The notes under the pieces are model-generated. The model was not told the DNA's origin and made no database searches. It saw only the letters and a program-made list of their open reading frames with translations. Positions 2,709 through 14,022 of a DNA stretch of 64,000 nucleotides are shown piece after piece; the first letter of the stretch is position 1, and each line of letters starts with the position of its first letter. This stretch comes from Maribacter algarum (ex Lu et al. 2025) (nom. illeg.) (GTDB taxonomy: Bacteria; Bacteroidota; Bacteroidia; Flavobacteriales; Flavobacteriaceae): NCBI GenBank assembly GCA_947495915.1, contig CANMAW010000001.1:496001-560000 (forward strand), in the 5' to 3' direction. The position numbers and the translations under genes were made by a program.

Positions 2709-3404
2709 ATGAAGCATAATTTGAAAAATAATACAGCTATTTTAGTCTTTGCCAATTCATCACATATTGATGAAAGGCAAAAGGCTTTTCCTAAAAGCAA
2801 GCAATTATTTCAGGCACTAACTGCCAAAACGATTTCCACCGTTCATAAAACACATCTGCCCTATTTTCATTTTTCTGAAAGTGAACAAATAGGTCATTCT
2901 TTCGGCGAGCGTTTTTTAAATGCTATTGCACGCGTATTTGAAAAAGGATATTCACAGGTAATTACTATTGGTAATGATACTCCACAACTTTCAGTTGAAC
3001 ATCTTTTAGAAACCGAAAAGCAATTAAATGCCAACAAATTTGTTTTAGGGCCAAGTACAGATGGCGGGTTTTATTTAATGGGACTTAATAAGTCTCAATT
3101 TGAGTCTTCCAATTTTTCGAAACTAGCTTGGCAAACGTCAACAGTTTTCAATCAATTACAAAAGCAACTAGAACAAACGGAAATTACGGTTCAGTGCTTA
3201 GCGTATTTGAGTGATGTTGATAATGCAATAGACGCCAGTTGTTTGTTGAATAGTAGTACCTATTTATCGCCAGATATTCGACATCTTTTGATACAAATTT
3301 GTTCTATAGCAAAATATCAAATAGAAGATCGTTCAACTTCTTTCTATTCATTTTATTTTACCAATAACCTTCATAATAAAGGTTCACCTGCTTTACTTCA
3401 TTAA
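2709..3404 (+). CDS. DUF2064 glycosyltransferase-like protein, arsenosugar type
   Basis: A 231-residue protein with a GT-A nucleotidyl/glycosyltransferase-like fold (DUF2064; the 'rSAM/selenodomain-associated transferase 1' type). Visible signatures are ITIGNDTPQLS in the DXD-like position and LGPSTDGGFYLMGL after it. Proteins of this type occur with ArsS and ArsM and are proposed to glycosylate arsenic-containing ribosides. It heads the cluster that contains arsS and arsM about 8 kb downstream. An in-frame TTG at 2697 gives four extra residues; ATG 2709 is preferred. The C-terminal 25 residues or so (Phe/Tyr/Ser-rich) are not obviously part of the domain. Confidence 0.75.
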   Translation: MKHNLKNNTAILVFANSSHIDERQKAFPKSKQLFQALTAKTISTVHKTHLPYFHFSESEQIGHSFGERFLNAIARVFEKGYSQVITIGNDTPQLSVEHLLETEKQLNANKFVLGPSTDGGFYLMGLNKSQFESSNFSKLAWQTSTVFNQLQKQLEQTEITVQCLAYLSDVDNAIDASCLLNSSTYLSPDIRHLLIQICSIAKYQIEDRSTSFYSFYFTNNLHNKGSPALLH

Positions 3405-3473
3405 TAGCGCATAAATGAATCTTTTCTCAATGTATCTGCTTTTAAATCAGGCATAGAAAAGAAATGAAGTAAA
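3392..3473. other. Nested inverted repeats upstream of susC-like gene
   Basis: Two exact inverted repeats are nested. TTTACTTCATT (3392-3402) pairs with AATGAAGTAAA (3463-3473), and inside it TCTTTTCT (3420-3427) pairs with AGAAAAGA (3455-3462). On the right side the two arms are contiguous; on the left they are separated by 17 bases. The structure starts inside the end of the preceding gene and ends 17 bases before the SusC ATG. It could be a leader hairpin controlling susC translation or a weak attenuator. There is no T-run on the plus strand, so it is not a classical terminator. Confidence 0.45.
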
Positions 3474-3490
3474 TCTATACGAAACTTTTA

Positions 3491-6400
3491 ATGAAACACA
3501 TTTTCATAGTAATAACCCTGTTCTTTGCAGCTCAGAGCTATTCGCAAACCTCTATATCAGGGGTAGTTACTGATACCAATAATAACCCACTGCCCTTTGT
3601 AAACATTGTTCAAATCGGCACTCAAAATGGCACCACTACCGACGAAAACGGAGCCTATACTATCGAATCAACACTAGAGTTAGGGGCTCTTGAATTTTCT
3701 ATTTTAGGCTTTGAAACGCAATCACAAAGCTTCAATGGCTCTCAATTAATGAACATCATATTAATTGAAACGTCACAAGAACTTGATGAAGTTGTACTTA
3801 CAGCCCTAGGTGTAAAAAGAACTACCAAAGAATTGGGGTATGTCGTTCAAAGCCTCGACGCCGAAGGAGTAACGGAAGTGAAATCTGTTAACTTTTTAGA
3901 TAACCTTGCAGGAAAACTAGCTGGTGTGACCATTAACCAAGGAGCAACAGGTGTAGGTTCTTCGTCAAAAATCACAATAAGAGGGGAGGCTTCTTTTTCA
4001 AATAATAATCCGCTATTTGTCGTAGACGGCGTACCAATTAACAACAACTCCGTTTTCAATTTTACCAATGAGGCAGCCGCTGGATTTCAAGAAATAGATT
4101 TTGGTAACGGAGCAATGGAGGTGAACCCTGATGATATTACTGAAGTTTCAGTTCTAAAAGGGCCGAGTGCTGCCGCATTATATGGTACTAGAGCTTCTAA
4201 TGGTGTAATCGTAATTGAAACCAAAAGTGGTTCAAATTCAAAAGGTTTAGGTATAAGTTTTAATACCAGCTTTTTTATAGATAGTGCTTTTAAACTTCCT
4301 GATTTTCAAAATCAATATGGACAAGGGCAAGCAGGTGTTTTTGAATTTGTAGATGGCTTAGGTGGTGGTACCAGCGATAATATCACCTACAGTTGGGGTC
4401 CGCGCCTTAATGCAGGAAATCTTATTCCTCAATTTGATAGCCCTGTTACCCTAGCAGATGGCTCTACAGTTCGAGGTGGTGATACGGCATTGTATACTGG
4501 TTTGCCAATAACCGCTACCCCATTTAATTCCAATCCGAACAACTTAAAAGACTTTTATCAAACAGGTACTACTTTTATCAATAACATTGCCATTTCAAAT
4601 GGTTTTGATACCGGAAATTACCGGCTCTCATTTACCGATTTAAGAAGTGAGTCTATCATACCTGGTGTTAATTTAGACCGTCAAACTTTAAGCACTCGTC
4701 TCGGTTTTAATCCTACAGATAAACTAAAATTTAACGCCTCATTAAGTTATGTAAATTCACAAAGTGATAACCGACCTAGTAACGGCTATGGCTCTGAAAA
4801 TGCAAATTATTCATTGGTTGCATGGGGGCCAAGATCACTTAATATAGATAATCTTCGTAATTACTGGCAACCTGGTTTAGAGGGCGTACAGCAATATTCA
4901 TATAACTACACGTTTTTTGATAATCCGTTTTTCATTCTGAATGAAAATAGAAACTCATTTAATAGAGATCGCGTTTTTGGAAACATTGCTGCGACATATG
5001 CTATTTCTCCACAATTAACTGCAACAATTCGATCAGGAATGGACTATTCAAGTGAATTACGGCAATTGCGACGTGCTTTTAGTTCAAACCGATTTAGAAA
5101 TGGGGGTTATGCCGAGCATGATGTGTTTTTTAGAGAAATTAACACCGACTTTATACTTAACTATAAAAAAACATTTTCTGATTTTAAACTAGATGTTTCG
5201 GTTGGCGGAAACCGTTTAGATCAAACCGCAGCAACAAGTCAGTCACAAACCACCAGTTTAGCGCAGCCCGGTATTTTTAGATTATCGAATGCGGCATCAC
5301 CTATTGAAGCGTTTCAATTTGAATCGAATAAACGCATCAACAGCTTTTACGGAATTGCAAAAATCGGTTATAAAGACTTTCTGTTTATAGATGTTACTGG
5401 TAGAAATGATTGGTCAAGTGCGTTGGCCACCCCATTCTCCGTAGACAACACCTCTTTTTTCTACCCTTCAGTTTCTAGTAGTTTTGTAGTATCCAACATA
5501 ATTGACTTACCACGAAGCATTTCATTCGCAAAACTTAGAGCTAGTTGGGCGCAGGTTGGTAATGATACCAATCCTTATCAAACCACGGGTGCTTTTGTGG
5601 CTCAAACACCATTTAATGGCCAGCCAACGTTTAGCAATCAAAATACCATAGCAAATCCGAATTTGAAACCAGAACAAACCACTTCTTTTGAGGTCGGTGC
5701 AGATATTAGATTGTTTGGTGATCAATTAACTTTTGATATTTCGTATTATAACGCTTTAACGAAAGATCAAATTATTTCGCTACCAATACCTATCTCTTCT
5801 GGCTTCACGCAACAAGTAGTTAACGGGGGTCAGGTACGATCGAAAGGAATTGAAATTATTGCCGGTTTTAGCCCGATCATTTCTGATAATTTTCAATGGC
5901 ATAGTACGCTAAATTTTAGTCGAAATAGAGCTACGGTTGAAGACTTACCGCAAGACGAGGGTCGATTAACATTAGCTTACTCAAGAATTTACGACAGTCA
6001 AAACCAAACGGTATTTTTTCAAGTAGAAGAAGGTGGTCGAATTGGTGATTTGTACGGTACTGGATATTTGAAAAACGAGAATGGTGATTTTATTTTAACT
6101 GAAGAAGGACGCTATATTCCTGATAACGAACTACAGAAATTAGGAAATTACAATCCTGATTTTATGCTCGGTTTTAACAACCAATTAAATTATAAAAACT
6201 GGAATCTTGGATTTCTGCTCGATTGGAGGCAAGGTGGAATCATCGTTTCTCGTACACGTGCTTTAGGAAATGTTGGTGGCCAATTGGCAGAAACGGCATT
6301 TCGACCTGAAGAGGGTATTGTACCTCAGGGTGTTGTAAATACTGGTACCGCTGCTCAACCATTATATACAACCAATACCACCTCTGTTTCTGCTGAAAGT

Positions 6401-6694
6401 TACTACCGACAGTTCTATGACCGAAATCATGAAGAAAACAATATTTATGACGCTTCTTTTCTAAAACTAAGGCAAATGTCTATTGGTTATACTTTTGATC
6501 AACTAAACCTATTTAATACCAATGCTTCATTAAATCTTTCATTGATTGGTAGAAACCTTTTTGCAATTACTGAAAATCCGCATTTCGATCCTGAGCAATT
6601 AGCCGTTCAAGGTCAGGGATTTGTGAGTGGCGTTGAAGATATGTCGTATGCGACCACAAGAAGTATTGGTTTTAAAGCAGGGTTTAACTTTTAA
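3491..6694 (+). CDS. SusC/RagA-family TonB-dependent outer membrane transporter
   Basis: A 1067-residue outer-membrane importer. The order is a Sec signal peptide (about residues 1-19), a carboxypeptidase-regulatory-like domain (about 20-105), a plug domain with KITIRGEASFSNNNPLFVVDGVPI (quoted in part: FVVDGVPI) and VSVLKGPSAAALYGTRASNG, and then a long beta-barrel ending in an aromatic residue (GFNF). These are SusC signatures; such proteins import substrates captured by a SusD lipoprotein using TonB energy. The SusD partner starts 12 bases downstream. The substrate cannot be told from sequence. The position between an arsenosugar-type transferase and arsS/arsM suggests a link with arsenic metabolism, but this is only context. 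Confidence 0.93.
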   Translation: MKHIFIVITLFFAAQSYSQTSISGVVTDTNNNPLPFVNIVQIGTQNGTTTDENGAYTIESTLELGALEFSILGFETQSQSFNGSQLMNIILIETSQELDEVVLTALGVKRTTKELGYVVQSLDAEGVTEVKSVNFLDNLAGKLAGVTINQGATGVGSSSKITIRGEASFSNNNPLFVVDGVPINNNSVFNFTNEAAAGFQEIDFGNGAMEVNPDDITEVSVLKGPSAAALYGTRASNGVIVIETKSGSNSKGLGISFNTSFFIDSAFKLPDFQNQYGQGQAGVFEFVDGLGGGTSDNITYSWGPRLNAGNLIPQFDSPVTLADGSTVRGGDTALYTGLPITATPFNSNPNNLKDFYQTGTTFINNIAISNGFDTGNYRLSFTDLRSESIIPGVNLDRQTLSTRLGFNPTDKLKFNASLSYVNSQSDNRPSNGYGSENANYSLVAWGPRSLNIDNLRNYWQPGLEGVQQYSYNYTFFDNPFFILNENRNSFNRDRVFGNIAATYAISPQLTATIRSGMDYSSELRQLRRAFSSNRFRNGGYAEHDVFFREINTDFILNYKKTFSDFKLDVSVGGNRLDQTAATSQSQTTSLAQPGIFRLSNAASPIEAFQFESNKRINSFYGIAKIGYKDFLFIDVTGRNDWSSALATPFSVDNTSFFYPSVSSSFVVSNIIDLPRSISFAKLRASWAQVGNDTNPYQTTGAFVAQTPFNGQPTFSNQNTIANPNLKPEQTTSFEVGADIRLFGDQLTFDISYYNALTKDQIISLPIPISSGFTQQVVNGGQVRSKGIEIIAGFSPIISDNFQWHSTLNFSRNRATVEDLPQDEGRLTLAYSRIYDSQNQTVFFQVEEGGRIGDLYGTGYLKNENGDFILTEEGRYIPDNELQKLGNYNPDFMLGFNNQLNYKNWNLGFLLDWRQGGIIVSRTRALGNVGGQLAETAFRPEEGIVPQGVVNTGTAAQPLYTTNTTSVSAESYYRQFYDRNHEENNIYDASFLKLRQMSIGYTFDQLNLFNTNASLNLSLIGRNLFAITENPHFDPEQLAVQGQGFVSGVEDMSYATTRSIGFKAGFNF

Positions 6695-6705
6695 TTCAAT
6701 TGAAT

Positions 6706-8271
6706 ATGAAATATATTTACGATAACAATAAACGGTTAGGAGTTTACCTAGCAAAATATACTTTCCTCAATCCCCCCTTCATTGGAGGAAAGTCAATGTT
6801 CCCCTCCTCATGGAGGGGTTCAAGGGGAGGGATTGCATTTCAATTACTTTTTATATTCCTGTTTACCCTAAATTCTTGCACCCAAGATTTCGAAGAAATT
6901 AATACCAATACCAATACTCCTGTACTGGTACAACCAAGTCTTTTATTACGTCAGGTTATTTACGATTATGGTGAACAAATGTCATACGAAGGTTTTACAG
7001 CCGGCAATTTATTAGGTCAATATACTACCGCTTTAGATTTTAATTTGTTCGATAGACACAATTTGAAATCACCACAGCTAGGCGGTAATCCGTGGCCTAT
7101 ATTTTATCAAAATTTAAGAGACAATGAAATTATTTTAAAGCTATCGTTGACAAATGAAACCTTTGCGGTTTACGAAGGTCCCTCACGAATTTTGAAAGCT
7201 TATATGGCTGGCGCTTTAACTGATTTATTTGGAGATGTACCTTATTCAGAGGCATTTCGAGGACAAGAAACTACAGTTACTGCTAAATACGATGCTCAAG
7301 AAGATATATATCTTTCAAACGATGGAATCTTAGATAACCTCAATCAGGGTATTGCTGCTATTGAAGCCTACTCTGGTAATATAGCCTTAGAAGGTGATAT
7401 ACTTTATAATGGTGATTTAGAAGGGTGGGTACGTTTTGCCAACTCTTTGAAAATAAAATATTTAATGCGTATCGCTACAAAAATAGAGGTTGCCGATCAA
7501 TTACAGGCCATTGTTTCTGAAGGTAGATTTATCAATGCCAATAATCAAAATGCAATATTCAATTTTACAGATGGTGAACCTAACAATTTTAGATTAGCAC
7601 GATTACGTATTGGCGATTTCAATAATTTTGTGCAATCTGAAACTATCGAAGATATTCTGAAAGAACTCAATGATCCTAGAATAGCAACTTTATTCAGGCC
7701 CTTTAGTAATAGTGATACTGGTACTGAATTCAACGGACTACTAAATGGTATTGATGCGACACAAAACGCGGCGACTCTCGCAGACTATTCTTTAGCAGGA
7801 TCAATTTTTCGCGAAAATACAGGGGCTTTAGATGCAAATTTCATGACCAGTATGGAAACACATTTACTTCTGGCTGAAGCTGCTGAAAAAAACCTAATTT
7901 CTGATGACGCTCAAACCTTATACGAAACTGGAGTACGACATGCTTTTGAATATTGGCAGGTTGAACTTCCAGCAGATTATTTAACTACTACCGCGGCTTA
8001 TGCCAGTGCAGGGGCCAATCCTATTGAACAAATCATTACACAAAAATGGATTGCAAATATGATTAATGGTTATGAAGGTTGGATTGAATACCGTCGAACG
8101 GGTTTTCCACAATTACGTACAATTTCAGCAAGCTTGAACAATGATCTCATTCCGGTACGAATGCCCTATCCAGCAGAAGAAGAGGCATTAAATAGCACGA
8201 ATTATACTGCTGCCGCCGAAAATACAGATGGTAATAGCATAAACAAAAGGGTTTGGTGGGACGAACAATAG
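6706..8271 (+). CDS. SusD/RagB-family substrate-binding lipoprotein with disturbed N-terminus
   Basis: The mature part is a clear SusD-like protein: a lipobox-like FTLNSC, then TQDFEEIN, alpha-helical TPR-type repeats and the C-terminal motif NGYEGWIEYRRTGFPQL. It partners the SusC gene just upstream. The N-terminus is odd: before the hydrophobic signal segment (FQLLFIFLFTLNSC) there is a long non-typical stretch that includes translation of a palindromic repeat (6761-6834). ATG 6706 gives a very long n-region; ATG 6796, inside the repeat, would give a more normal signal peptide (MFPSSWRGSRGG...). The lipoprotein cysteine survives in frame, so the gene is probably still expressed. Confidence 0.88.
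   Translation: MKYIYDNNKRLGVYLAKYTFLNPPFIGGKSMFPSSWRGSRGGIAFQLLFIFLFTLNSCTQDFEEINTNTNTPVLVQPSLLLRQVIYDYGEQMSYEGFTAGNLLGQYTTALDFNLFDRHNLKSPQLGGNPWPIFYQNLRDNEIILKLSLTNETFAVYEGPSRILKAYMAGALTDLFGDVPYSEAFRGQETTVTAKYDAQEDIYLSNDGILDNLNQGIAAIEAYSGNIALEGDILYNGDLEGWVRFANSLKIKYLMRIATKIEVADQLQAIVSEGRFINANNQNAIFNFTDGEPNNFRLARLRIGDFNNFVQSETIEDILKELNDPRIATLFRPFSNSDTGTEFNGLLNGIDATQNAATLADYSLAGSIFRENTGALDANFMTSMETHLLLAEAAEKNLISDDAQTLYETGVRHAFEYWQVELPADYLTTTAAYASAGANPIEQIITQKWIANMINGYEGWIEYRRTGFPQLRTISASLNNDLIPVRMPYPAEEEALNSTNYTAAAENTDGNSINKRVWWDEQ
6761..6834. repeat. Palindromic (REP-like) element inside the SusD signal-peptide region
   Basis: Two adjacent exact hairpins of C/G-rich sequence stand out from the AT-rich surroundings. 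CTTTCCTC (6761-6768) pairs with GAGGAAAG (6785-6792), and CCCCTCC (6801-6807) pairs with GGAGGGG (6812-6818). An outer imperfect pairing joins AATCCCCCC (6769-6777) with GGGGAGGGATT (6824-6834). The layout is that of the short CCCCTCC/GGAGGGG palindromes scattered between genes in many Bacteroidota genomes. Here it lies within a reading frame, in front of the hydrophobic segment. Confidence 0.7.
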
Positions 8272-8277
8272 CAAATC

Positions 8278-8320
8278 ATACCATTTGCAACAGTTTTTTA
8301 ACCTACAAATGGTATTTTTT
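8278..8320 (+). terminator. Probable rho-independent terminator after susD
   Basis: ATACCATTTG (8278-8287) pairs perfectly with CAAATGGTAT (8306-8315) around an 18-base loop and runs into a T-rich tract up to 8320. It begins 6 bases after the susD stop codon and would separate the SusCD pair from the downstream transporter, at least in part. Confidence 0.6.
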
Positions 8321-8337
8321 ATACAAGTAAACACAAT

Positions 8338-9678
8338 ATGACTGATATACAAATTTGGCAATGGTGTTTAGTAATTGGGTCTAGTTTGGCCTTCTTGCTA
8401 TTCGCACCCATGGCCAAAAATACCAATCAGTTTTTTAAAGCTATTCAAAAGAAAAAGACACCCAATACTTTCATGTTAATGGGTAGTCTGGTCATTTCAT
8501 GGATTTTCGCGAAAAGCATCACCAATGCTGCTAATTTAGGCCTTGAATTCGGTATTGTAGGGGGTGTAGCTTATGCAGGGTATTATTTGTCATTTTTAGT
8601 AGCTGGTATTGTCATTTACAACATAAGAACCCAAAGTAACTATACTAGCATTCATCATTTTCTTAGTTCAAAGTTTGGTAAAAGTGCCGTGGCCGTATTT
8701 TCAATTTTAATTGCTATTCGCTTATTTAATGAGGTTTGGAGCAACACCATGGTTATTGGCTCATATTTTGGCGACATGGGCTCTTCAATATACTACTGGG
8801 CTATTGTAGTTTTCACCGTACTTACATTGGCTTATGTTATAAAAGGTGGCATGAGCAGCTCCATATTTACAGACGTTATTCAAATGTGCTTATTCGCTAT
8901 TTTGTTATGCATTATTCTCTTTCAAATTTTTGGCGCGAACGAAGATTTTACCACAGGCACTGTGTTAACTTCGGGAGTATGGTCTTTTGAAATGGGCTTA
9001 AATCTATTGTTTGCTGCTTTATTGCAATCCTTTAGTTACCCATTTCATGATCCCGTGTTAACAGATAGGGGTTTTCTCTCTAGTCCGATAGTGACCTTAA
9101 AAAGTTTTCTTTGGGCAGGTGCGGTTGGTGCCATTTGCATCATCTTATTTAGCACCATAGGAGTATATGCGCAAACTCAAGGCATGGTAGGTCAAGCAGC
9201 AGTTGAAGTCGGTAAGGCGTTTGGGTTAGTATTGCTACTTATTCTAAACTTTATAATGATTACCTCTGCAGCCTCTACTCTAGATTCTACCTTCTCTTCT
9301 TTTTCTAAGTTATTAGCAATTGATTTAAACTTAGGGAACAGTTTAAAATTTGGCCGTTGGTCAATGGTTCTCATTGCTATTCTTGGTACTATTCCTGTTT
9401 TTTTAAATGCTGAAATATTATCTGCGACTACTATTAGTGGCACCATGGTCATCGGGTTAACTCCTATTTTTCTATTTTGGAAATCTAAGGCAACTATCAT
9501 AAGTTTTCATTTGAGTGTGTTCTGTGGCCTGCTATTCGGATTTCTTTTGTTATTCAATCTTTTTCCAGAAAATCTCGTATTTACAACAGGAAAATATGCG
9601 AAATTATTATGGATTAATTTCTGGGGAATACTTTGTTGTTTCATCTTATACTTTACACCCACGTGGATAAAAAAATAA
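8338..9678 (+). CDS. Sodium:solute symporter (SSS) family transporter
   Basis: A 446-residue inner-membrane protein with about 12-13 hydrophobic segments. Features of the SSS/SLC5 fold are visible: a GGVAYAGYYLSF segment in the early helices, YVIKGGMSSSIFTDVIQ (the family's GG(M/L)xAvxxTD motif) near residue 180, and a helix with MITSAASTLDSTFSSF near residue 310, which corresponds to the serine/threonine-rich sodium site. It is a little shorter than typical members (480-550). It overlaps the start of the next gene, so the two are likely co-translated. It probably imports or exports a small organic solute for the arsenosugar cluster; the substrate is unknown. Confidence 0.8.
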   Translation: MTDIQIWQWCLVIGSSLAFLLFAPMAKNTNQFFKAIQKKKTPNTFMLMGSLVISWIFAKSITNAANLGLEFGIVGGVAYAGYYLSFLVAGIVIYNIRTQSNYTSIHHFLSSKFGKSAVAVFSILIAIRLFNEVWSNTMVIGSYFGDMGSSIYYWAIVVFTVLTLAYVIKGGMSSSIFTDVIQMCLFAILLCIILFQIFGANEDFTTGTVLTSGVWSFEMGLNLLFAALLQSFSYPFHDPVLTDRGFLSSPIVTLKSFLWAGAVGAICIILFSTIGVYAQTQGMVGQAAVEVGKAFGLVLLLILNFIMITSAASTLDSTFSSFSKLLAIDLNLGNSLKFGRWSMVLIAILGTIPVFLNAEILSATTISGTMVIGLTPIFLFWKSKATIISFHLSVFCGLLFGFLLLFNLFPENLVFTTGKYAKLLWINFWGILCCFILYFTPTWIKK

Positions 9679-10868
9679 AACATATCGGCACAAAAAGCGG
9701 AAAACTATTACTCTTTGGAGGTGTTTATAGCAATTTACAAGCCCTTGAAAAGTTAATCGCTATCGCCAAAAGTGAAGGTGTCGCTGCAGAAAATTGTATT
9801 TCTACGGGTGATATTATCGGATATTGCGCACAACCGGAAGAAACCGTGCAACTTTTTCGTAAATGGGGTGCGCGGAGCATAGCAGGTAATGTAGAATTAC
9901 AACTAGCAAATGATAGTGAAGACTGTGGCTGTGATTTTAAATCAGGCAGTCGTTGTGATAATTTTTCTAAAACTTGGTTTCCCTATACCAAAGGTTATTT
10001 ATCTGAAGGTTCTTTAGCTTGGATTTCAGAAATACCAGAAAATATAAGTTTTCAATATGCAGGTAAAACCGTTACCGTTGTACATGGAAATTACGGAAAC
10101 ATATCAGAATTTGTTTTTAAATCAAATGCTAATTCGAGCAAAGAAAATTGCTTTATAGCAACCAATAGCGATGTAATTATTGCTGGTCATTGCGGACTAC
10201 CATTTCATCAAACTTTTAAAGGTAAATTATGGTTAAACCCAGGTGTTATAGGAATGCCAGCAAATGATGGCACCACCCGGGTTTGGTATATGACACTTGA
10301 AATTGAAAACAATGAGATAAAATATACTCATCGGTCTTTCGAATATGATTACAAAAAAGCACAACGGTTAATGTATGCTAACCACCTGCCTGAAGCCTAT
10401 GCAGATACATTGTCTTCTGGTATTTGGGATAATATGGAAATACTTCCTGAAATTGAAAAAATGGGACAAGGTATTCCCATAAACTTAGATAATTTAAACA
10501 CAAACATTGTTCCACCTAAAAAACAAAAAAAGATGGCAGATTCATATTATGATCCAAAAGATCTTAGAAAATTCAGTAAAATAACAGAATGGAGTGAAGA
10601 GCTTGGTACAAAATTTTTCGATTATTATGGTAAGGTTTTCGAAGAAGGCGCACTAAGTGCTAGAGAGAAGTCATTAATCGCGTTAGCTGTTTCTCACGTG
10701 GTGAAATGCCCCTATTGTATTGATGCTTATACCAAAGACGGATTACAAAAAGGAATTACGAAAGAAGAAATGATGGAAGCAGTTCATGTAGGCGCTGCTA
10801 TTGAGAGTGGCGCTACCTTGGTACATGGGGTACAAATGATGAACAAGTACGACAAATTATCAATGTAA
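9663..10868 (+). CDS. Metallophosphoesterase-like / CMD (peroxidase-like) fusion, arsenosugar cluster
   Basis: Two domains lie in one 401-residue frame. Residues 1-280 resemble the calcineurin-like phosphoesterases of arsenosugar clusters: GGVYSNLQAL, STGDIIGYCAQPEE, AGNVELQL, VVHGNY and AGHCGLPFH. Several canonical metal ligands are altered: GGVYSN stands where D-x-H is usual, and GNVE where GNHD/E is usual. From Met291 (position 10533) the sequence is a carboxymuconolactone-decarboxylase/AhpD-like domain with Cys349-P-Y-Cys352, matching the 'arsenosugar-associated peroxidase-like' protein, which would be 111 residues alone. No stop lies between them, and an A-rich stretch precedes codon 291, so an internal start is possible. 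The GTG at 9663 overlaps the symporter gene by 16 bases; TTG 9633 is less likely. Confidence 0.8.
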   Translation: MDKKIKHIGTKSGKLLLFGGVYSNLQALEKLIAIAKSEGVAAENCISTGDIIGYCAQPEETVQLFRKWGARSIAGNVELQLANDSEDCGCDFKSGSRCDNFSKTWFPYTKGYLSEGSLAWISEIPENISFQYAGKTVTVVHGNYGNISEFVFKSNANSSKENCFIATNSDVIIAGHCGLPFHQTFKGKLWLNPGVIGMPANDGTTRVWYMTLEIENNEIKYTHRSFEYDYKKAQRLMYANHLPEAYADTLSSGIWDNMEILPEIEKMGQGIPINLDNLNTNIVPPKKQKKMADSYYDPKDLRKFSKITEWSEELGTKFFDYYGKVFEEGALSAREKSLIALAVSHVVKCPYCIDAYTKDGLQKGITKEEMMEAVHVGAAIESGATLVHGVQMMNKYDKLSM

Positions 10869-10873
10869 TTTCA

Positions 10874-10919
10874 TGTTCTAAGTCAATAGAATGCAATTTC
10901 AATAGCACCTTAGAACATA
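10874..10919. other. Inverted repeat between the fusion gene and arsS
   Basis: ATGTTCTAAG (10874-10883) pairs exactly with CTTAGAACAT (10910-10919) across a 26-base spacer. It lies just past the stop codon of the fusion gene, and about 120 bases before arsS. There is no T-tract, so a terminator is unlikely; it may be an mRNA-stabilising hairpin, a processing site or a protein-binding site. Confidence 0.4.
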
Positions 10920-11040
10920 CCTAAAACGAAGTCAAACTGCTATCCAGTAAAAAAAGAAAATTAATTCAGTTCACCTTTGTTAAAGTTTGATTTATAATTG
11001 AAAAACAACAGACAATGGTCAACGAACAACGAAAAAAAGA

Positions 11041-12096
11041 ATGGCAACAAAATCATTAAAAGCAAAGGGTAACGAACTTGCAGAGAGTAATCGACAGCTT
11101 GATATTTTAAATGGAGGCATTTTCGCCGATGGCGAATTACCATTTTTTAAAGATAAAATAGGTGAAATTGGGCATTTTCCTTTACGACCGAAAAAGCTAG
11201 AAATTCTGCAGATTAATGTAGGGTATATGTGCAATCAAGTTTGCGAACACTGCCATGTTGATGCTGGGCCTGACCGTAAAGAAATAATGACACGTGAAAC
11301 CATGCAACAGTGCCTTGAAGTCATCAAAAATACTGGGGCTCATACCCTCGATTTAACTGGTGGTGCACCAGAGATGAACCCTGATTTTCGTTGGTTTGTT
11401 GAAGAGGCCGCAAAAGCAGGCATCAAAGATTTTATTGTTCGATCAAACCTTACAATTATTCGTGCAAATAAAAAGTATTACGATTTGCCCGATTTCTTTA
11501 AAAAACACAATGTTCACGTAATTTCTTCAATGCCTCATTATACACGAGGCAAAACAGACAAACAACGTGGTGATGGAGTTTTTGATAAATCAATTAAGGC
11601 CTTACAAGAATTAAACGAAAGAGGTTATGGCATGCCTGGTAGCTCGTTGCGTTTAGATTTGGTATATAATCCTTCCGGTGCTTATTTGCCAGGAGATCAA
11701 ATGGCCATGGAAAAAGACTTTAAAAAAGCTCTCGATGAAGATTTCGGAATTCAATTTCACAATTTGTTCGCCATCACCAATTTACCAATTGCTCGTTTTT
11801 TAGACTATTTGATAGCGTCAGAGAATTATGAAGATTATATGTACGCTTTGGTAGAAGCTTATAATCCGTCTGCAGTAGAAAATGTAATGTGTACCAATAC
11901 TATTTCTATTAGTTGGGATGGCTGGTTATATGATTGCGATTTTAACCAAATGCTTGATTTAAAAGTAGCGAGTAAGGTGAAGCACATCAAAGATTACAAT
12001 GAAGATCTTTTGAATGATAGAAATATTATCATTTCGCAACATTGTTACGGCTGTACTGCTGGTGCTGGTAGTAGCTGTCAGGGTACAGTGGCTTAA
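11041..12096 (+). CDS. arsS: Arsenosugar biosynthesis radical SAM protein ArsS
   Basis: A 351-residue radical SAM enzyme. The 4Fe-4S site is Cys64-X3-Cys68-X2-Cys71 in VGYMCNQVCEHCHVDAGP, followed by LDLTGGAPEMNP, the GGxP-type SAM motif. The C-terminal domain is the Cys-rich module of this family, ending CYGCTAGAGSSCQG with Cys335, Cys338 and Cys346. Some family members have selenocysteine here; this one has only cysteine codons and no in-frame UGA. ArsS is known to join dimethylated arsenic to a 5'-deoxyadenosyl group, producing the precursor of arsenosugars. It lies directly upstream of arsM with a 47-base gap, so the pair is co-transcribed. Confidence 0.93.
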   Translation: MATKSLKAKGNELAESNRQLDILNGGIFADGELPFFKDKIGEIGHFPLRPKKLEILQINVGYMCNQVCEHCHVDAGPDRKEIMTRETMQQCLEVIKNTGAHTLDLTGGAPEMNPDFRWFVEEAAKAGIKDFIVRSNLTIIRANKKYYDLPDFFKKHNVHVISSMPHYTRGKTDKQRGDGVFDKSIKALQELNERGYGMPGSSLRLDLVYNPSGAYLPGDQMAMEKDFKKALDEDFGIQFHNLFAITNLPIARFLDYLIASENYEDYMYALVEAYNPSAVENVMCTNTISISWDGWLYDCDFNQMLDLKVASKVKHIKDYNEDLLNDRNIIISQHCYGCTAGAGSSCQGTVA

Positions 12097-12143
12097 GAAA
12101 AAGAAAGCAATTAAAGTCAATCCACGAATTAAAACAATTTTAC

Positions 12144-13112
12144 ATGAGCTATTTAAAAGCCACAAACGATTTGTATAAGGAAGCCGCATTAACCCCTGAT
12201 GTTGGCTTGTGTTGCACCACCAACCCCATTTGGGAGTTACCGGGATTAAAGATTCCGAAAATAATGCAGGAGATGAATTACGGTTGCGGAAGCACCGTGC
12301 ATGCTCGAGATTTATCAAACAACCCTAAAATGCTATATGTTGGTGTAGGTGGAGGAATGGAATTGCTGCAGTTCTCGTATTTCAACCGCCAAAAAGGAGG
12401 TGTTGTTGGTGTTGATATAGTTGAAGAAATGTTAGAAGCAAGCAGAAAGAATTTCAAAATCGCTGAAGAAGAAAATGACTGGTTTCAATCAGATTTTGTA
12501 GATCTTAAAAAAGGAGATGCCTTAAATCTTCCTTTAGATGACAATAGCGTTGACGTAGCTGCTCAAAACTGTTTGTTCAATATATTCAAAGAAGAAGATT
12601 TAAAACGCGCTATTGAAGAAATGTATCGGGTATTAAAACCACATGGCAAACTCGTAATGAGTGATCCTACTTGTGAACAACAAATGAACGACACCTTACG
12701 AAATGATGATCGTTTACGTGCCTTATGTTTGAGCGGAAGCTTACCGATTAATGCGTATGTGAAAGCATTAACTGATGTAGGCTTCGGTACGATTGAAATT
12801 AGAGCTAGAAAACCGTACCGCATCTTAGACCCTAAGAACTACCCAACCGATGAATTGATTTATATTGAATCGATTGAAGTTGCTGCAATAAAAGATCCGA
12901 TGCCCGAAGACGGACCCTGTGTGTTTACAGGAAAAGCTGCGATTTACTTCGGCAGCGAAGATTATTTTGACGATAACAAAGGCCACGTTTTATTAAAAAA
13001 TCAACCCCTTGCCGTATGTGATAAAACAGCTGGCGCACTTGCTGAAATTGGTCGTGATGATATCTTTATTAGCGAGTCAACATTTCATTACGACGGCGGT
13101 GGTTGCTGCTAA
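12144..13112 (+). CDS. arsM: Arsenite methyltransferase ArsM, arsenosugar type
   Basis: A 322-residue SAM-dependent methyltransferase. The SAM motif YVGVGGGMELLQF is around residues 65-77, with GVDIVEEMLE following. Arsenic-binding thiols are abundant: Cys23-Cys24 (GLCCTT), Cys48 (NYGCGST) and a C-terminal GGGCC. This pattern and its position after arsS identify the arsenosugar-cluster ArsM, which converts As(III) to mono- and dimethylated arsenic for ArsS. It differs from short detoxification ArsM by its long C-terminal region (EDYFDDNKGHVLLKNQPLAV). The operon ends at the hairpin at 13129-13177. Confidence 0.93.
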   Translation: MSYLKATNDLYKEAALTPDVGLCCTTNPIWELPGLKIPKIMQEMNYGCGSTVHARDLSNNPKMLYVGVGGGMELLQFSYFNRQKGGVVGVDIVEEMLEASRKNFKIAEEENDWFQSDFVDLKKGDALNLPLDDNSVDVAAQNCLFNIFKEEDLKRAIEEMYRVLKPHGKLVMSDPTCEQQMNDTLRNDDRLRALCLSGSLPINAYVKALTDVGFGTIEIRARKPYRILDPKNYPTDELIYIESIEVAAIKDPMPEDGPCVFTGKAAIYFGSEDYFDDNKGHVLLKNQPLAVCDKTAGALAEIGRDDIFISESTFHYDGGGCC

Positions 13113-13128: not shown

Positions 13129-13177
13129 ACCATCAAAGCCAGTTGACTTTTTAACGGCTGATTTTGATGGTTTTTTT
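13129..13177 (+). terminator. Terminator of the arsS-arsM operon
   Basis: CCATCAAA (13130-13137) pairs with TTTGATGG (13163-13170), with further inner pairing between GCC/AGTT and AAC/GGC, followed by seven T residues (13171-13177). It starts 17 bases after the arsM stop codon. Confidence 0.8.
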
Positions 13178-13366
13178 ATGCCCTTCTCTAAAATTTAGCC
13201 TCCTTTGCTTCTTTCCTCTCTTTCACGAATACGATAAAAACCAACTTGGTAGTTTGTAACGATCGAGATTTTCTGTTTTTCTATTAAATTCTTGTATTTC
13301 AACGAATATTGTAGGCGAATCAGCCGTTTGCATATAACAAATCAAGTATTTAGGAGTTATAACATT

Positions 13367-13382
13367 CCGACCCAGTGGTCGG
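13367..13382. promoter_or_regulatory. TetR operator palindrome
   Basis: CCGACC-CAGT-GGTCGG is a perfect 6+4+6 inverted repeat, 22 bases before the ATG of the TetR-family gene. GACC-N4-GGTC half sites are typical of TetR-family operators. Its location suggests autorepression; it may also mark other targets of the same regulator elsewhere in the genome. Confidence 0.75.
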
Positions 13383-13404: not shown

Positions 13405-14022
13405 ATGGAAAAATCAATCAAACGTAGAACTACCATGAACCGAATGCAGGTTACCGGACTCGAATTGTTCTACAAAAACGGATATTATAATACGAGTGTT
13501 GATGATATTTTAAAAGAACTTTCACTTTCGAAAGGCGCATTCTATTATCACTTTGATTCTAAAGAAGATTTCTTTATTCAAATCATTGAGCAGCTCGTAG
13601 TTCGCAAGGTTTATAGTATGTTAATTGAACCTATTGAAGGGCATGAAAACACCTTAGACCTGATTACCAACTGTTTCGAAAACGCATTAGAAACTGCTGT
13701 ACACAACGAATTAGATTACGGATTCGTTTTAAGTAATTTTATCCATGAGTTTAACGGTAGAAATCAAGAAATAATGAAACACCTCAATGAAATTTTACGC
13801 ATTTGGGAGGTTACATTAGTTTCTGCAATACAACGCGGCAAATTTAATGGCCATATTGATCGTCACGTTGATGCTGAAGGGGTAGCCGTATACCTTATGA
13901 GTTCTTTTATTGGCATACGAACCCTCATGGTTGAAACAGCACCTAGTGCCCGCAAATATCGTTTTATGTCTCAATTACGCCAGTACTTTAAATCGATTGA
14001 AGTTCGCCAACAGTCGTACTAA
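13405..14022 (+). CDS. TetR/AcrR family transcriptional regulator
   Basis: A 205-residue regulator with an N-terminal helix-turn-helix domain (about residues 10-55; GLELFYKNGYYNTSVDDILKELSLSKGAFYYHF includes the usual recognition helix SKGAFYYHF) and an all-helical ligand domain with no recognisable specificity. It follows the arsenosugar operon but has its own start region, with a perfect operator palindrome at 13367-13382. That suggests autoregulation. Whether it also controls arsM/arsS is not shown, since no copy of the palindrome was seen upstream of those genes. It overlaps the convergent GT9 gene by 4 bases. Confidence 0.88.
   Translation: MEKSIKRRTTMNRMQVTGLELFYKNGYYNTSVDDILKELSLSKGAFYYHFDSKEDFFIQIIEQLVVRKVYSMLIEPIEGHENTLDLITNCFENALETAVHNELDYGFVLSNFIHEFNGRNQEIMKHLNEILRIWEVTLVSAIQRGKFNGHIDRHVDAEGVAVYLMSSFIGIRTLMVETAPSARKYRFMSQLRQYFKSIEVRQQSY

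Follow-up and report, generated by a model that had tools for sequence, protein, structure and literature searches.

A SusCD–symporter cassette linked to arsS in flavobacteria: a candidate system for organoarsenical uptake

In Synechocystis sp. PCC 6803, ArsM and ArsS jointly perform the first steps of arsenosugar synthesis (PMC8552651, citing Xue et al. 2019), and within this pathway it is a radical SAM enzyme that adenosylates arsenic (PMC12159101; PMC8552651). In the available passages of that account only ArsM and ArsS figure. The entry of organic arsenicals into cells is less well described; according to a 2025 review, in its passage on animal and human toxicokinetics, little is known of how arsenobetaine, arsenosugars and arsenolipids are taken up (PMC12608789). 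Here we examine a cluster of seven genes at positions 2709–13112, + strand, of a 64,000-nucleotide stretch of the Maribacter algarum genome (assembly GCA_947495915.1, 4.17 Mb in 35 contigs; contig CANMAW010000001.1, positions 496,001 to 560,000), which we call the window. Beside ArsS, with its CX3CX2C motif, and ArsM, as in Synechocystis, the cluster encodes a SusC/SusD pair, a predicted symporter of the SSS family and a protein of metallophosphoesterase fold (MPE); these four form the cassette with which this report is concerned, and many of its bearers, unlike Synechocystis, are without ArsM. We find that the cassette travels with arsS throughout the family and is commoner where ArsM is missing. 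It may bring organic arsenic to ArsS from outside the cell. The genes and domains are as follows.

2709–3404, + strand: opening gene of the cluster, for a TIGR04282-like (DUF2064) protein, a CofC-like transferase (PF09837, 78 bits, above cut-off)
3491–6694, + strand: SusC, TonB-dependent outer-membrane importer (TIGR04056, 592 bits; cut-off 368)
6706–8271, + strand: SusD, surface lipoprotein (PF12771, 297 bits; cut-off 27)
8338–9678, + strand: predicted Na+/solute symporter of the SSS family, SLC5-like fold, cassette subfamily (PF00474 SSF, 26.1 bits; cut-off 22.8)
9663–10502, + strand: MPE domain without canonical metal ligands, with conserved Cys (DCGC...RCD) (PF12850, 35 bits; cut-off 27; Foldseek)
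10539–10868, + strand: CMD (AhpD-like) domain, arsenosugar biosynthesis-associated and peroxidase-like, fused to the MPE domain (TIGR04169, 197–200 bits; cut-off 120)
11041–12096, + strand: ArsS, radical SAM enzyme (TIGR04167, 441 bits; cut-off 300; CX3CX2C at C64/C68/C71)
12144–13112, + strand: ArsM, arsenosugar-type arsenite methyltransferase (NF038099, 575 bits; cut-off 400)

The preliminary description of this DNA, made from the letters alone, had listed these genes and drawn the limits of the cluster. Both stand: the open reading frames and families are as described, ArsS, ArsM, CMD, SusC and SusD score over their cut-offs, and the cluster runs from an ATG at 2709 to 13112. Its DUF2064-type transferase passes PF09837, but at 110 bits falls under the curated TIGR04282 cut-off of 134, so that the protein is TIGR04282-like only. 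SusC and SusD resemble the TonB-dependent importers of Bacteroidota in family score, in adjacency and in the SusD lipobox (read by eye). They differ in their company: family scans recognised no glycan-degrading gene among the genes of the cluster, which is thus no polysaccharide utilisation locus, and the partners of the pair are instead a symporter and MPE inside an arsenosugar cluster. The SSS protein reaches 33 bits against TIGR00813 (cut-off 184). Its structure model, of moderate confidence (pLDDT 68.5), matches the SLC5-type symporters SGLT, CHT1 and SiaT; the model shows the SLC5-like fold and gives no indication of the substrate, and Na+-coupled import is predicted from the family. The SSS stop codon (9678) overlaps the MPE gene by 16 nt, assuming the likely GTG start at 9663.

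How often do SusCD and SSS accompany arsS in other flavobacteria? We surveyed 397 genomes of the window's family, counting ArsS as present where TIGR04167 exceeded its cut-off and accepting SSS matches at E <= 1e-40 (all were in fact at E < 5e-163). ArsS is very common, being over cut-off in 288 genomes; the remaining 109 comprise 65 with sub-cut-off matches and 44 without a match, and include G292, which has a partial ArsS and an ArsM. The SSS gene occurs in 52 genomes, as a single match in each, at 59–81% identity when the window's own is left aside. ArsS was found in 51 of these 52 versus 237 of the 345 genomes without SSS (Fisher p = 5e-7); conversely, SSS is carried by 51/288 genomes with ArsS and by 1/109 without. 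With one genome per genus (G000–G235 minus G050), the corresponding figures for ArsS are 31/31 and 145/204 (p = 9e-5). The association looked for in flavobacterial genomes is therefore present, and it is also physical: in 50 of the 52 genomes SSS and arsS share a contig and are no more than about 7 kb apart (the window; 29 of the 31 other regions that were read; 13 and 7 more by position). The two exceptions are G087, in which SSS and arsS are both present 181 kb apart, and G242 (locus L301), which lacks ArsS and holds a 59% identical SSS gene in what, by eye, looks like a phenylacetate-type operon. A draw of 345 genomes from the phylum yielded the SSS gene in eight, four of them from other families at 54–59% identity. 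All four have ArsS, within about 3 kb of SSS in G575 and G586 (on the opposite strand in the latter) and on a different contig in G711 and G475.

The usual order of the cassette is SusC-SusD-SSS-phosphoesterase. We read 30 cassette loci, that is, the regions read excluding G242. SusC (68–83% identity) and SusD (63–78%) are present in 29, and in 29 a TIGR04282-like homologue stands immediately 5' of SusC; L297 has neither SusC nor SusD. SSS-MPE lies directly 3' of arsS in L156 (G002), and in the short locus L262 (G168) no SusD was seen. Among 80 named loci selected by arsM, some of them short contigs, the cassette occurs in ten (L165, L169, L187, L188, L191, L192, L194, L208, L212, L224). That of Psychroserpens burtonensis DSM 12212 (L192), which begins after arsS, reads TIGR04282-like, SusC, SusD, SSS, MPE, rhodanese and TIGR04282, the last a second copy that passes its cut-off at 222 bits; there follow purine nucleoside phosphorylase, ArsM, a fatty-acid-hydroxylase-like protein, DUF547 and a TIGR04283 glycosyltransferase. 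On a Hymenobacter plasmid bearing ArsS, the cassette is not annotated within 9 kb. In L155, L200, L207, L210 and L297, arsS is preceded at a distance of 0.6–1.7 kb, on the same strand, by another and longer SSS gene (SSS550, of 550 aa in L155). Given the linkage to arsS, and since the cluster in the window holds no recognised glycan-degrading gene, we reject SusCD as chance neighbours or as part of a glycan locus. The earlier doubt as to whether SusCD and SSS should be included is largely settled by the same linkage and by the presence of SusCD in 29 of 30 loci, and the evidence supports counting SusCD and SSS among the genes of the arsenosugar cluster.

If the cassette goes with arsS, how does it stand to arsM? 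The arsenosugar-type ArsM (NF038099) is over cut-off in 226 of the 397 genomes. Among the 288 genomes with ArsS it is missing from 30 of the 51 that have SSS versus 33 of the 237 that do not (p = 1.2e-10), and with one genome per genus from 14/31 versus 20/145 (p = 2.3e-4). A looser search (E <= 1e-9) recovered some ArsM-like match in one of the 30 and in 19 of the 33 (one of the 19 a 63-residue piece), leaving 29/51 versus 14/237 with no ArsM-like match at all. Completeness is below 90% in one (G140) of the 30, in one of the 29 and in six of the 14.

The same tendency is seen within genera. Twelve genera hold ArsS-bearing genomes that differ in SSS (g3, g46, g54, g73, g93, g97, g164, g168, g171, g172, g176, g195). 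Six of them (g46, g54, g93, g97, g172, g176) differ in ArsM as well, and it is always the member with SSS that lacks it (sign test p = 0.031; the contrasts were read by hand from the search tables, the test was computed). In the window's genus, ArsM accompanies ArsS in one of four genomes with SSS, of which one (G402) is an 85% complete draft with arsS split at a contig end, versus seven of seven without SSS. With this genus included, the contrasts run 7/7 in the same direction (p = 0.016). Two further members of the genus lack ArsS: G405 has a full arsM and no ArsS match, and G400 a 53-codon arsM fragment. Since both are draft genomes, these gaps may be technical. We read the greater frequency of the cassette where ArsM is missing as suggesting that it brings in ready-made organic arsenic from outside.

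What becomes of ArsS when ArsM is gone? Eight cysteines, C64, C68 and C71 among them, are invariant in all 121 ArsS sequences aligned, including those of 22 cassette genomes without ArsM. Across the 112 columns that are invariant in 92 ArsM-bearing genomes, these 22 show a single departure, T to S, among 22 x 112 cells. So conserved an ArsS seems, to judge by its sequence, to retain its substrate in these genomes though the cell has lost its own means of supplying it.

What kind of protein is MPE? Its domain is modelled well (pLDDT mostly >85), and its fold matches that of Ap4A hydrolase/SapH-type calcineurin-like phosphoesterases (3qfm, 3rqz; Foldseek E 1.7e-14, TM 0.78 to the target). The canonical metal-ligand motifs of such enzymes are DxH, GNH(D/E) and GHxH. 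In all 26 aligned copies of MPE, the Asp and His of motif I and the His of GNH are absent, and the columns GGVYSN, GD, GNVE, CGC, RCD, H141 and GH are invariant; the third motif in the copies read is GH(C/S/A)G (GHCG in the window). Five more copies (L302, L303, L304, L306, L307) agree, except for FGGPYSN in L306, and that of L297 has FGGIY in the first motif. The preliminary description had spoken of a phosphoesterase fused to CMD. The fold, the fusion and the TIGR04169 score uphold this; in the first structure model the CMD part cannot be relied on (pLDDT <50). Because the canonical metal ligands are missing, we reject the identity of a canonical phosphatase, and MPE is probably no ordinary phosphatase. 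It differs from the SapH-type enzymes further in its conserved Cys motif, in the overlap of its gene with that of a transporter and, in some genomes, in the fusion to CMD. This fusion is found in the window, in L188 of Flagellimonas aquimarina ECD12, in seven of the 30 cassette loci read and, in another family, in L305; it is a gene-fusion link of the cassette to the arsenosugar core.

Relatives of MPE occur elsewhere. On a Mucilaginibacter plasmid, an ars resistance operon holds relatives with DxH intact, 3' of its ACR3 gene. A relative of this kind has DCGC as well, so the Cys motif can occur where DxH is kept and by itself proves nothing; we reject it as proof of arsenic binding. On a Roseomonas haemaphysalidis plasmid (L308, 1850–8810), a ligand-less homologue of 37% identity has a 4-nt overlap with the final gene of an importer of the PhnD-PhnE-PhnC type. 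Its neighbours are two radical SAM genes, TIGR04282 and DUF547, with a TIGR04283-like gene further on, and perhaps these genes make up an unknown organo-oxyanion pathway. From such comparisons of sequence, MPE seems to have begun as a phosphoesterase in arsenic operons and to have become the partner of a transporter.

Are there other importers in ArsS loci? We compared 185 distinct loci (of 191, identical ArsS being counted once), a non-random set with limited flanks, fetched via ArsS, ArsM or SSS. In 16 of them a PiT or Pst gene lies on the arsS strand within 8 kb of arsS (L081, L085, L093, L114, L118, L142, L147, L172, L178, L182, L195, L202, L203, L219, L221, L237), in 14 of the 16 at <=144 nt from arsM; PHO4 and ABC domains are recognised among their products. 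Like the cassette, they are importers within an arsenosugar cluster. Unlike it, they belong to phosphate families, are always found with arsM (16/16, versus 0/48 among loci without arsM; p = 0.013) and never with the cassette (0/35 cassette loci versus 16/150 others; p = 0.045). A third arrangement is seen in L097 (G343), where a different SusCD pair (36/31% identical), a transporter of the betaine/carnitine/choline family (BCCT) and a glutathione peroxidase, GSHPx, lie directly 5' of CMD-ArsS on the same strand. Phosphate-type systems carry arsenate in animal cells, according to the passage of the 2025 review cited above (PMC12608789). From the three patterns, the importer therefore seems to be a modular part of some arsenosugar clusters: phosphate-type with ArsM, SusCD-SSS-MPE often without.

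How might the cassette work? We favour, tentatively and at somewhat less than even confidence, the view that SusC-SusD-SSS-MPE is a dedicated uptake cassette, the Na+-coupled import of an organoarsenical feeding ArsS; both direction and substrate are part of this proposal. Going by their families, SusC and SusD would bind the organoarsenical and carry it across the outer membrane with energy from TonB, and the SSS protein would move it across the inner membrane with Na+. MPE, which is without the canonical metal ligands, keeps a Cys motif and is encoded in overlap with the symporter gene, may receive or gate the cargo and pass it to the CMD/ArsS machinery; in the window and some relatives it is fused to CMD. 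ArsS would then add the 5'-deoxyadenosyl group of SAM to the methylated arsenical, as is known for ArsS elsewhere. Where the cassette is present, a cell's own ArsM could become dispensable because methylated arsenic would be supplied from outside, which would account for the observed association. The window's strain keeps ArsM, and thus both routes of supply may be open to it. The preliminary description had left uptake or export as alternatives; of these we favour uptake, because the SusC, SusD and SSS families are importers, and not export.

Several observations weigh against this. ArsM is kept in 21 of the 51 cassette genomes, the window included; 33 genomes without NF038099 ArsM are also without the cassette, and ArsM varies in other genera without SSS. 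An independent-pairs test was run on a quickly built tree of ArsS from 121 genomes that are not a random sample; it gave five supported pairs and was not significant (median p 0.25): on average 3.2 pairs ran in the same direction and 0.0 in the opposite one, with one opposite in a few pairings, and with the traits swapped seven pairs gave 2.9 in the same direction and 4.1 without a difference (p 0.25). SSS-MPE occurs without adjoining SusCD in three genomes (G002, G121, G168). The Cys-motif loop of the MPE model is of low confidence (block pLDDT 58), and Roseomonas is one case, with radical SAM proteins below the ArsS cut-off. The mutual exclusion of PiT/Pst and cassette reaches only the p of 0.045 given above, in loci that are non-random, and among arsM loci alone it is 0/11 cassette loci versus 16/126 others (p = 0.36). 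Finally, SusCD normally serves substrates too large for porins, and dimethylarsinate is small.

Could the cargo be something other than arsenic? The cassette might import a compound without arsenic, used in the pathway as co-substrate or acceptor and linked there to the arsenic-ribose unit; a nucleoside, a sugar, a compatible solute or an acceptor of the glycerol type are examples. Transport of sugars or polar solutes is common among SSS proteins, the window's model resembles SGLT, CHT1 and SiaT, and both purine nucleoside phosphorylase and TIGR04282/TIGR04283 transferases are encoded in clusters of this kind. The phosphorylase would, we infer, remove adenine to give an arsenic-bearing ribose 1-phosphate. 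It is not, however, tied to the cassette: a gene for it is in reach in 116 of the 150 distinct ArsS loci without SSS versus 18 of the 35 with SSS, and the window's cluster is without one. Moreover, import of a co-substrate leaves the specific absence of ArsM from cassette genomes unexplained, and we think this reading rather unlikely.

Salvage or catabolism of algal arsenosugars or arsenolipids, with the cassette importing the finished molecules for remodelling by the cluster, would also make ArsM dispensable. It would suit the large substrates that SusCD handles and the names of some cassette bearers, which point to association with algae (Lacinutrix algicola, L212; Algibacter, L224). Yet the biosynthetic ArsS is fully conserved in the ArsM-less genomes, which would be unexpected if finished arsenosugars were only eaten, and family scans recognised no hydrolase with an intact known site in the cassette. 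Salvage we consider distinctly unlikely.

SusCD pairs are abundant in flavobacteria, and the one close SSS homologue in a genome without ArsS (G242) lies in what looks like a phenylacetate-type operon; the cassette could in principle be a nutrient-uptake unit unrelated to arsenic, lodged in a permissive chromosomal slot, but the 50/52 linkage in varied gene contexts, the fusion to CMD and the linkage in other families make this improbable. That the substrate of ArsS in these organisms is not a methylated arsenical but some other compound, supplied by the cassette, would fit the 29 of 51 cassette genomes having ArsS and no ArsM-like match, but is highly improbable given that the 22 ArsM-less ArsS proteins are unchanged, bar one T to S, at the columns invariant in ArsM-bearing genomes.

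Is the cluster transcribed as a unit? The preliminary description had placed a terminator between SusD and SSS and argued that SusCD may be transcribed separately. Two structures were found by folding:

8278–8320, + strand: stem-loop (8278–8315) and T-run in the SusD-SSS gap, perhaps a terminator or an attenuator
about 13129–13178, + strand: intrinsic terminator-like stem and T-run 3' of arsM, stronger than that between SusD and SSS

The first, with a 10-bp stem in a gap that folds at -10.3 kcal/mol, is real. We folded the SusD-SSS gaps of 21 of the 30 loci, those within length limits; 17 of the 21 are only 12–71 nt long, and in these 17 short gaps no stem with T-run comparable to the window's was seen. 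Because it is not conserved, the stem-loop is weak evidence for separate transcription: the argument does not generalise to the relatives, and we reject it as proof of separate operons.

Two further features lie nearby. The signal-peptide region of the window's SusD (6757–6845) carries an in-frame inverted-repeat insert of the type CCCCTCC..GGAGGGG, adding about 39 residues and an in-frame ATG (6796) just 5' of the normal lipoprotein leader. It is absent from the other 13 SusD proteins in an alignment of 14, and we rejected it as a genome-wide repeat, having found no second copy in the genome (E <= 0.001) or the window. Beyond arsM, a perfect palindrome, CCGACC-N4-GGTCGG, at 13367–13382 precedes a TetR gene (13405–14022). 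Its sole exact copy in the window is this one, and we rejected it as an operator of the ars cluster. In many loci, whether or not they hold the cassette, arsS/arsM have the TetR gene and the GT9 gene after it as neighbours.

Among the best matches in the literature searched, which leaves out most subscription journals, none describes SusCD or SSS together with arsS, and this does not prove novelty. The type of arsenosugar cluster is known; its SusCD-SSS-MPE transport variant appears to be new. Tied to ArsS by linkage, by gene fusion and by the complementary absence of ArsM, the cassette is a concrete, knock-out-ready bacterial candidate for the entry of organoarsenicals, and the arsS-bearing clusters of this family show a modular choice of importer. 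It is possible, though we hold this with less confidence than uptake itself, that many flavobacteria are arsenic cross-feeders, which have dropped ArsM, import methylated or other organic arsenic from algae and other microbes through a TonB- and Na+-driven system with a ligand-less MPE, and finish it to arsenosugars. If so, they would possess a dedicated bacterial uptake system for organoarsenicals; bacteria would trade methylated arsenic, and the arsenosugar pathway would be split among the members of a community.

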